Source: a virus. Taken from it: a stretch of 23,791 bases of DNA. Positions 12,133 through 13,581 of the stretch are shown here, piece after piece. Position 1 is the stretch's first letter; each line of letters begins with the position of its first letter. The stretch is taken from the IMG/VR virus record IMGVR_UViG_3300011116_000454, positions 1 through 23,791 of that record; one strand, written 5' to 3'. A program made the position numbers and the translations under genes. The notes beneath the pieces are model-generated. The model saw only the letters and a list, made by a program, of their open reading frames with translations, ran no database searches and had not been told where the DNA came from.

Positions 12133-12317
12133 AAACACTATTTCAATTCTTTGTGGAAGAGTTCTCAGACATCCACTACTGCCCCTATTGCTTGACAATC
12201 AAGGGAGATAAAATAGTTTGCTGCCAAGAAGCAGACTTTATCGAGTTCAAGGATTTAGACCTTGACCAACAAAAAGAGATTATTCAACAAGAGTTAGATG
12301 AAAATCAAAGGAGTTAA
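12129..12317 (+). CDS. Small protein with CPYC zinc-type motif
   Basis: A 62-residue protein starting MKTLFQFFVEEFSDIHYCPY. CPYC and a later CC give a possible zinc site; the C-terminus is an acidic helix. The ATG at 12129 overlaps the upstream stop. An in-frame ATG 27 bases earlier would lie inside the upstream gene. No function known. Confidence 0.75.
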   Translation: MKTLFQFFVEEFSDIHYCPYCLTIKGDKIVCCQEADFIEFKDLDLDQQKEIIQQELDENQRS

Positions 12318-12318
12318 T

Positions 12319-12927
12319 ATGTCAATAGAAGCGTTACTGAAAAAAGATGTCAATTCTCATACAGAGAAGAAAAACAACCTGACCTACCTGTCATGGGCAT
12401 GGGCATGGCAAGAGGCTCTCAAAGCTGATCCTACCGCCACCTATAAGGTAGAGATGTTTGGCGACAAGTGTTTCATGGAAATCAATGGTACGGCAATGGT
12501 ATTCGTTACCGCTACCATGTTTGGCAAACCAATGACTTGCCAGTTACCTGTGATGGACTATCGGAACAAAGCCATCCCCAATCCTGATGCTTTTGCGGTC
12601 AACACAGCAATTATGCGGTGCATGACAAAGGCTTTAAGTCTGCATGGCTTGGGTCTATACATCTATGCTGGTGAAGACCTCCCAGAAGAGGGTAGATCAG
12701 TAGTGATTACACCTACCCAAGGTGCAATGGATAATATTCCTCAGGAGGAATTACAGTACTTGCAAGAGATGGCAGTCGAATTGATTGCTACCTGTGAGCA
12801 AGGTGACCCCAAGGCAGCTTGGGATAAGTTGGAAGGAGAGAACCTTGATGACCAACAGAAAATCGCATTATGGACACTCCTACCCAGTAAAGTAAGAAGT
12901 GCGTTAAAGAAAGCAAAGGAAATGTGA
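12319..12927 (+). CDS. DUF1071 / Sak3-like single-strand annealing protein
   Basis: A 202-residue protein with the family signature near its N-terminus (YLSWAWAW, residues 23-30), then 'MDYRNKAIPNPDAFAVNTAI' and a C-terminal HGLGLYIYAGEDLPEE. DUF1071 proteins are the Sak3 group of phage recombinases, which pair complementary single strands in recombination-dependent replication and repair. The ATG at 12319 has AAGGAG before it; upstream frames enter the previous gene. It lies directly before an SSB-tail protein, forming an annealing module, while RusA and the Ref-like nuclease lie in the leftward block. Confidence 0.85.
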   Translation: MSIEALLKKDVNSHTEKKNNLTYLSWAWAWQEALKADPTATYKVEMFGDKCFMEINGTAMVFVTATMFGKPMTCQLPVMDYRNKAIPNPDAFAVNTAIMRCMTKALSLHGLGLYIYAGEDLPEEGRSVVITPTQGAMDNIPQEELQYLQEMAVELIATCEQGDPKAAWDKLEGENLDDQQKIALWTLLPSKVRSALKKAKEM

Positions 12928-13163
12928 TGGAAAAGAAAGATAACTCAGGCGTTTTGTTCAAGAACGACAAAAAAGAGTCAGAGAAACACCCTGATTACAA
13001 AGGAAATATCACAGTAGGCGGTCAGGATTACTGGCTATCTGCATGGATTAAAGAGGGTAAAAGCGGTAAGTTTATGGGTTTAGCAGTATCACCCAAAGAA
13101 GACTATCAGCCAAAACAAGCCCCTAAGAAGGCAAGTTTTGAAGACGAAGACCTGCCCTTTTGA
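12927..13163 (+). CDS. DUF736-like protein with SSB-type C-terminal tip
   Basis: A 78-residue protein. The segment HPDYKGNITVGGQDYWLSAW resembles DUF736-type small beta proteins. The last residues, EDEDLPF, copy the acidic Asp/Glu-rich tip ending in Pro-Phe of bacterial SSB, which recruits DNA-repair partners. It starts at ATG 12927, overlapping the annealing-protein stop (TGATG). I infer a single-strand-binding or partner-recruiting role in recombination. There is no separate SSB gene in the window. Confidence 0.7.
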   Translation: MEKKDNSGVLFKNDKKESEKHPDYKGNITVGGQDYWLSAWIKEGKSGKFMGLAVSPKEDYQPKQAPKKASFEDEDLPF

Positions 13164-13177
13164 GTTAATATAAACCC

Positions 13178-13233
13178 GAGGGGGGAGCTGTGCAAAGGAT
13201 TTTCCTAGCTTGCAGACGAGCAGTTTTCCCCTC
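13178..13233 (+). ncRNA. Structured RNA element (56-base hairpin)
   Basis: A 13-pair outer stem (13178-13190 with 13221-13233, three G-T pairs) encloses a five-pair stem (TGCAA/TTGCA) and a four-pair AGGA/TCCT tip with a TTT loop, plus bulges of three and six bases. It lies in the gap between the SSB-tail gene and the winged-helix gene, whose ribosome site follows eight bases later. There is no T-run after it, so it is not a terminator. It could be a translational control element or a stable small RNA. Pairing is read by eye. Confidence 0.6.
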
Positions 13234-13251
13234 ACCCAATAGGAGTTAATG

Positions 13252-13581
13252 ATGACATTAGATAAAGCATGGTTTGGTGGTGCAGTAGAGAAATTCTTTG
13301 GCTCACCAGCGTTTAAACTGGCTAGAAGAGAAGACCCTGTAACGAGCCATCAGGCGGCTCAAGCAGTTGATACCACCAAGCTAGAAACAATGGTCTATGA
13401 AGCCATTAAAGGCTTTCCAGATGGGTGTATCTCAGACGACATCCTCGGAATGTTCCCAAACTACCCATATTCCTCGATAACAGCAAGGTATCGTGCTTTG
13501 TTAGACAAGGGATTTATTGAAGTGTCGGGTGTCAAACGTGGCAAGTTTGGCAGAAATCAACGAATTATGAAGGCCAAGTGA
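13252..13581 (+). CDS. Winged-helix protein, phage family with DPVTSHxAA motif
   Basis: A 109-residue protein. The segment ARREDPVTSHQAAQAVDTTK and the following VYEAIKGFPDGCISDDILGM ... YPYSSITARYRALLDKGFIE match, from memory, a common phage winged-helix family that may bind DNA or replication partners. ATG 13252 is better spaced from AGGAG (13241-13245) than ATG 13249. It is preceded by the hairpin at 13178-13233, so its translation may be regulated. Confidence 0.75.
   Translation: MTLDKAWFGGAVEKFFGSPAFKLARREDPVTSHQAAQAVDTTKLETMVYEAIKGFPDGCISDDILGMFPNYPYSSITARYRALLDKGFIEVSGVKRGKFGRNQRIMKAK

Follow-up and report, generated by a model that had tools for sequence, protein, structure and literature searches.

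At positions 13178 to 13233 on the plus strand of the window, as we call the whole analysed stretch of 23,791 nt from the virus record IMGVR_UViG_3300011116_000454, lies a real and conserved structured RNA. It stands between the gene of a small protein resembling single-stranded DNA-binding proteins (SSB) and a winged-helix protein gene. The element very probably belongs to a larger group of RNAs with a long conserved core, and this group is almost certainly a widespread and so far undescribed family of structured RNAs lying between phage genes. The locus has the following features:

12298 to 12927, plus strand: gene encoding a Sak-type single-strand annealing protein, an upstream member of the operon (Pfam SSAP_Sak, E 1.2e-40; PHROG Sak-like ssDNA annealing protein)
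12924 to 13163, plus strand: small ssDNA-binding-protein-like gene with the acidic tip ...DEDLPF, stop at 13161-13163 (PHROG single strand DNA binding protein, E 4.4e-15)
13178 to 13233, plus strand: structured RNA element of the window ('dominant') subtype (fold z -2.8, covariation, 99.2 % identity)
13178 to 13190, plus strand: P1/P2 5' strand, pairing with 13221-13233 (fold, covariation)
13191 to 13194, plus strand: P3 5' strand UGCA, pairing with 13211-13214 (fold, covariation)
13196 to 13206, plus strand: hairpin at the apex, AGGA-UUU-UCCU, corresponding to the part that varies across the wider family (fold, covariation)
13211 to 13214, plus strand: P3 3' strand UGCA (fold, covariation)
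13215 to 13220, plus strand: bulge GACGAG, six bases on the 3' side, recurring in nearly all close relatives
13221 to 13233, plus strand: P1/P2 3' strand (fold, covariation, compensatory changes in relatives)
13234 to 13236, plus strand: unpaired ACC directly 3' of P1, conserved in the family (C frequency in long-form loci)
13241 to 13245, plus strand: AGGAG, ribosome-binding site of the winged-helix gene, not included in the hairpin
13249 to 13581, plus strand: winged-helix protein gene (phrog_1123, unknown function; PHROG, AlphaFold, Foldseek)

The gap from the upstream stop codon TGA to the next start codon ATG at 13249 measured 85 nt, not the 88 bases given in an earlier description made from the letters of the DNA (the sequence-only reading). 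The architecture given there was reproduced by the predicted fold: 13 pairs, four pairs of UGCA with UGCA (TGCA with TGCA in the DNA) as a second, nested stem, and a tip of the AGGA/UCCU type (AGGA/TCCT in the DNA). The fold also shows the GACGAG bulge. As also described, the hairpin ends just before the ribosome site, which starts 7 nt past its end, and no T-run follows. An intrinsic terminator was rejected: a T-run is lacking after the G+C-rich stem, and a scan for terminators reported none at this place. For 13165-13260 the minimum-free-energy fold had -29.8 kcal/mol compared to a mean of -20.35 (sd 3.41) for shuffled sequences (z -2.77), and three of 200 shuffles folded as well. This single-sequence energy is by itself only moderately unusual; the element is secure because of its conservation and covariation. 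The minus strand of the 56 nt folded much less stably than the plus strand (-17.6 vs -26.7), because the stem holds G-U pairs. In the 23.8 kb of the window the element is present as a single copy.

Relatives were collected from IMG/VR by way of the downstream winged-helix gene, the SSB-like gene and the Sak gene, yielding 223 loci, some of them overlapping in contig. A recognisable form of the element was present in 209; among the remaining 14 loci several end at a contig edge and others are divergent variants outside the search patterns. In 1166 pairwise comparisons the identity of the element was 99.2 %, as against 72.5 % at the third codon positions in the adjoining gene. The compensatory changes proposed as a check in the sequence-only reading were present: GAGGGG/CCCCUC was replaced by GGAGGG/CCCUCC, and an A-U pair of the long stem by G-C. 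For the 21 distinct sequences of the window subtype the covariation score was 0.202, compared to 0.154 +/- 0.009 after shuffling, a score reached by none of 500 shuffles; slid pairings scored at most 0.127. The window element matched the covariance model R2 of its subtype and close variants, which was built from near-identical relatives, with 88.7 bits and an E-value of 8e-17. Exceptions in the bulge were GUCGAG in four relatives (L081, L133, L134, L136) and a degenerate form in two (L376, L377), which demonstrate that GACGA can be lost. In these last two loci the degenerate element lies directly 3' of the SSB-like gene, with GAAAGAACAG replacing GACGAGCAG and an otherwise usual context.

More distant relatives fill this slot with elements in which GAAA and either GAGUA or GUA interrupt the lower stem and the bulge reads GGACGAA or GGCGAG. 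Other loci, again 3' of the same SSB-like gene, hold GAGGCGAAAGCGGAUGC, an insert and GACGCAGCGAGUAGCCUC. The core of the family consists of GAAAGCGGAUGC, the stem P2 with a variable hairpin, and GACGCAGCGAGUA, with a covarying stem enclosing the whole. This long form was detected by a strict pattern in at least 120 IMG/VR contigs, and a pattern search found short and composite forms in 31 contigs. The alignment of the long form was anchored on the constant blocks alone, and scoring covered the two flanking stems, P1 with 5 pairs and P2 with 4. Their covariation was 0.622 vs 0.199 in shuffled alignments (none of 500 reached the value; slid controls were at most 0.131), with 82 vs 25.6 double-change cells and double changes in nine of nine pairs. 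The first three pairs of P2 contained 28 G-U and one A-C combination, therefore the folded molecule is the RNA of the gene-sense strand. A function as folded DNA or as primer RNA in phage replication, e.g., a single-strand origin or a primosome site, would suit a position amid replication and recombination genes, but a DNA hairpin would not favour G-T mismatches. Because G-U pairs are kept and A-C pairs are not, a role at the DNA level is quite improbable, and the weaker fold of the minus strand also speaks against it. The covariance model of the long form, R1, found one copy in nearly every locus. Among 20 phage records 17 were matched, with single copies except for one tandem pair and one marginal extra match elsewhere. 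A long and a short form in tandem occurred in four loci (L035, L242, L288, L305). The family is characterised by structure in the sense-strand RNA, covariation, a near-invariant core, variable stems and normally one copy per genome. Four further loci (L191, L220, L264, L282) have a core whose P1 is poorly paired, and lack a clear gene downstream; these may be decayed or different copies.

R1 did not match the window element, even with filters off, and R2 as the model of the window subtype did not match the short, composite or long forms, a negative result for direct homology. Membership of the window element in the long-core family hence rests on intermediates and synteny. Two loci (L013, L075) combine a GAAAGC/GUAG base as in the long form with an inner hairpin as in the window form; they are matched by R1 with E-values of about 0.01 and sit between the same two genes as the window element. 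R1 also matches the short forms that stand next to a long form in the tandems (E 0.002-0.007), and long, short, intermediate and window forms occupy the equal position beside the same genes. On these grounds we consider the membership highly probable. The forms may be arranged in a series from the long over the short form, GAAA/CGUA and GAAC/UUAGUA to the window form with its plain stem, a GACG-containing strand being kept throughout. The GACGAG bulge is the likely counterpart of GGACGAA in the short and GACGCA in the long form. The window subtype would then be derived: its outer core would have turned into a plain helix, with the GACGAG bulge retained. Constant internal loops combined with freely varying stems are also a trait of a small self-cleaving ribozyme, which could detach the SSB message from that of the following gene. 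We regard such a ribozyme as very improbable, because the window form has lost the outer core to a plain helix and circularly permuted forms were absent from the IMG/VR search.

In accordance with the sequence-only reading, which had seen no obvious match to a known RNA family, Rfam 15 with curated cut-offs yielded no match for the window or for 12 loci of all subtypes. Relaxing the threshold to E-values up to 5-10 produced nothing credible. Candidates among the Rfam members, including STAXI, CRISPR and tRNA, were rejected for lack of a match. Most motifs of a 2017 survey of 224 candidate RNAs should be in Rfam. In the open-access papers searched, neither the core sequence nor RNA elements of phage SSB genes were found. 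The mRNA of gene 32 of phage T4 has a pseudoknot before the gene, which is bound by gp32 itself in an autoregulation. Both cases present a structured RNA within the mRNA of a phage ssDNA-binding protein; however, the RNA of the family described here is located 3' of the gene and accompanies SSBs of unrelated folds. The nearest described motif by context is the STAXI RNA motif of unknown function, a pseudoknot in two to three tandem repeats near the gene of a single-stranded DNA-binding protein and other DNA-handling genes (Weinberg 2010, PMC2864571). It shares with our family the structured motif in an ssDNA-binding gene context, whereas the family of the window forms a single extended hairpin that contains conserved internal loops and is normally present in one copy, and a test for tandem pseudoknots was negative.

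The genes beside the element differ in their constancy. Upstream proteins tested singly were assigned to SSB PF00436 (OB-fold), Enc34 ssDNA-bd, DUF669, RecT, Pam3_Gp34 and DUF2303. About 20 of 41 non-redundant upstream proteins matched PHROGs for ssDNA-binding or annealing; about half belonged to other or unknown families. Leading PHROGs among the 41 were single-strand DNA-binding families with 9, 6 and 3-5 members, followed by Gp2.5-like (2) and RecT (1). The ssDNA-binding and annealing proteins thus span several unrelated folds (OB-fold SSB, Enc34-type, DUF669, RecT, Gp2.5-like). The downstream genes are mixed, with phrog_1123 winged-helix, MazG, PAPS reductase, DNA polymerase, primase, RdgC, HNH and others; in the annotated phage MW202710 the element lies between genes annotated as 'single strand binding protein' and 'ntP-ppase'. 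The flanking genes change while the element persists. An additional gene stands between SSB and element in L184, and other genes intervene between element and winged-helix gene in L049, L051 and L069. Next to the element in four loci (L195, L222, L238, L257), before or after it, a tiny secreted-looking protein of about 49 amino acids, ending in TTCCYGGNCTTNCY, is encoded.

The sequence-only reading had recognised the downstream product of the window as a winged-helix protein, and this was confirmed by an AlphaFold model with a block of pLDDT 82-89 from residue 41 onward and by Foldseek, which matched it mostly to winged-helix regulators of the MarR, PadR and Fur types (lowest E 0.002). Relatives of phrog_1123 have alternative N-termini (MTLDKAWFGG..., MNDIFGSMK..., MDIKSAFDRIF...), followed by a common DPxTSxxAA domain. 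A specific tie of the RNA to this gene was not supported: in other phages a different gene follows; it is the preceding gene, often one for an ssDNA-binding or annealing protein, that recurs. A regulation specific to the winged-helix gene was rejected on account of the varying next gene and the intervening genes in the three loci named above.

A riboswitch-like element which binds a ligand and controls the translation of the next gene, e.g., by nucleotide sensing, has to be considered. P1 and the adjacent ACC(U) would gate the ribosome site. The aptamer-like make-up of conserved internal loops and variable stems, the ACC directly 3' of P1 (among 110 long-form loci, 68 % have C at position +2 past P1 and 73 % at position +3) and the short distance to the ribosome site agree with this. 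But the downstream genes share no common pathway, the ribosome site of the window is outside the hairpin, and pairs involving it are short and weak. Sequestration of the Shine-Dalgarno (SD) sequence by the apical UCCUA was rejected, since the possible UCCUA-UAGGA pairing is lost in relatives; no other SD-sequestering alternative fold was found conserved in relatives. A riboswitch is therefore improbable.

As RNAs of a phage operon, the nearest described elements are putL and putR of phage HK022, early-operon RNAs of about 70 nt with two stem-loops near a promoter that act without a dedicated phage protein (PMC9378689). Transcription antitermination of this kind would agree with the similar size, and put RNA needs no partner of phage origin. 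Two adjacent stem-loops and binding to the RNA polymerase beta' zinc-binding domain were taken as the marks of a put RNA. The window element, however, is a single extended hairpin in a mid or late position of the operon with little left to transcribe, and a test for two stem-loops was negative. Antitermination is very unlikely because so little operon remains downstream, about 540 nt in the window, where genes on the opposite strand follow, and about 350 nt in MW202710.

The reading we favour, held with somewhat less than even confidence, is an intercistronic RNA, transcribed within the mRNA of ssDNA-binding and annealing operons, that binds a partner and acts in cis. Since the upstream function recurs and the gene downstream changes, an effect on the SSB or annealing mRNA (stability, processing, insulation) is favoured over the regulation of a single downstream gene, and we propose a cis mechanism on the mRNA of the SSB operon in a similarly tentative manner. 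The element would be transcribed as part of the mRNA encoding ssDNA-binding and annealing proteins. The conserved non-helical strands GAAA/GAGUA and GACGNA would bind a partner common to many hosts, which could be a metabolite or a host protein. Its binding may act in cis on mRNA processing, on mRNA stability or on translation of the flanking genes, and the outcome would be abundant SSB, whatever gene stands next. By its letters, GAAA/GAGUA resembles a sarcin-ricin or loop-E motif. Glutamine and lysine riboswitches use a GAA/AGUA loop-E motif; the family differs from these in core sequence and gene context and has no match in Rfam. Against the favoured reading stands that genes other than SSB genes also occur upstream, given about half of the 41 proteins with other assignments and the intervening gene in L184, and that a nearly frozen sequence with a hypervariable tip equally suits an RNA acting in trans. 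A covarying family on more than 100 phage contigs, new to Rfam 15, recurs at the ssDNA-binding and annealing locus regardless of the protein fold, and this recurrence points to a shared, undescribed need in phage replication or host takeover.

Three features are absent from the sequence-only reading: the GACGAG bulge, the core of the long form and the hypervariable tip. The tip is best illustrated by two close genomes, L335 and L342: the downstream 150 nt were 100 % identical, the upstream 200 nt 86 %, and the apical insert 57 %, the latter as gapped identity with the shared P2 ends included. In the long elements of L335, L342 and L231 the flanks are closely similar and the apical hairpins unrelated, as if cassettes had been swapped at a conserved core. 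In the dominant window subtype the tip is not variable. For the tandem of L035 (4794-4975) ARAGORN called no tRNA, and the core of its long copy holds a hairpin resembling a tRNA T-arm (GUGAG-UUCGAAU-CUCAC).

As a consequence of the hypervariable tip, a small RNA acting in trans is a serious rival, if a rather unlikely one. Located in the mRNA gap, it would be excised by host RNases, with the core as scaffold or protein-binding handle and the tip either targeting RNAs of the host or of rival phages or evading recognition. Unrelated apical hairpins in close genomes, the very high conservation of the window subtype, the persistence of the element beside changing neighbours and the normally single copy per genome are all in line with it. 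On the other side, neither a terminator nor a convincing promoter of its own was found around the window copy, and the tip is invariable in the dominant subtype. The fixed spacing to both neighbour genes suggests action in the mRNA: the stop codon typically lies 9-15 nt upstream of the long core and the next start codon 20-26 nt downstream, which just accommodates a ribosome site. An unlikely extension is that the constant core with swappable, hypervariable tips presents an RNA cassette in the recombination/SSB locus, functioning as an anti-defence or host-takeover factor. If true, the exchange of tips between phages would hit or escape changing targets in hosts or rivals.

BLAST searches for copies in cultured phages retrieved only two annotated genomes, both from a spring sample, and the element was not found in a BLAST search against plasmids. 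Bacterial genomes yielded 11 pattern matches. The 29-nt matches in Bacteroidetes, Planctomycete and Prevotellaceae genomes leave no room for an insert and are probably due to chance, and a match in Imhoffiella is doubtful. Copies in a Limnohabitans MAG and in Comamonas were confirmed by the model: the one in the Limnohabitans MAG lies among phage genes with an SSB gene about 1.8 kb upstream, the one in Comamonas is without obvious phage genes nearby. Within the Comamonas family the element was present in three of 401 genomes.
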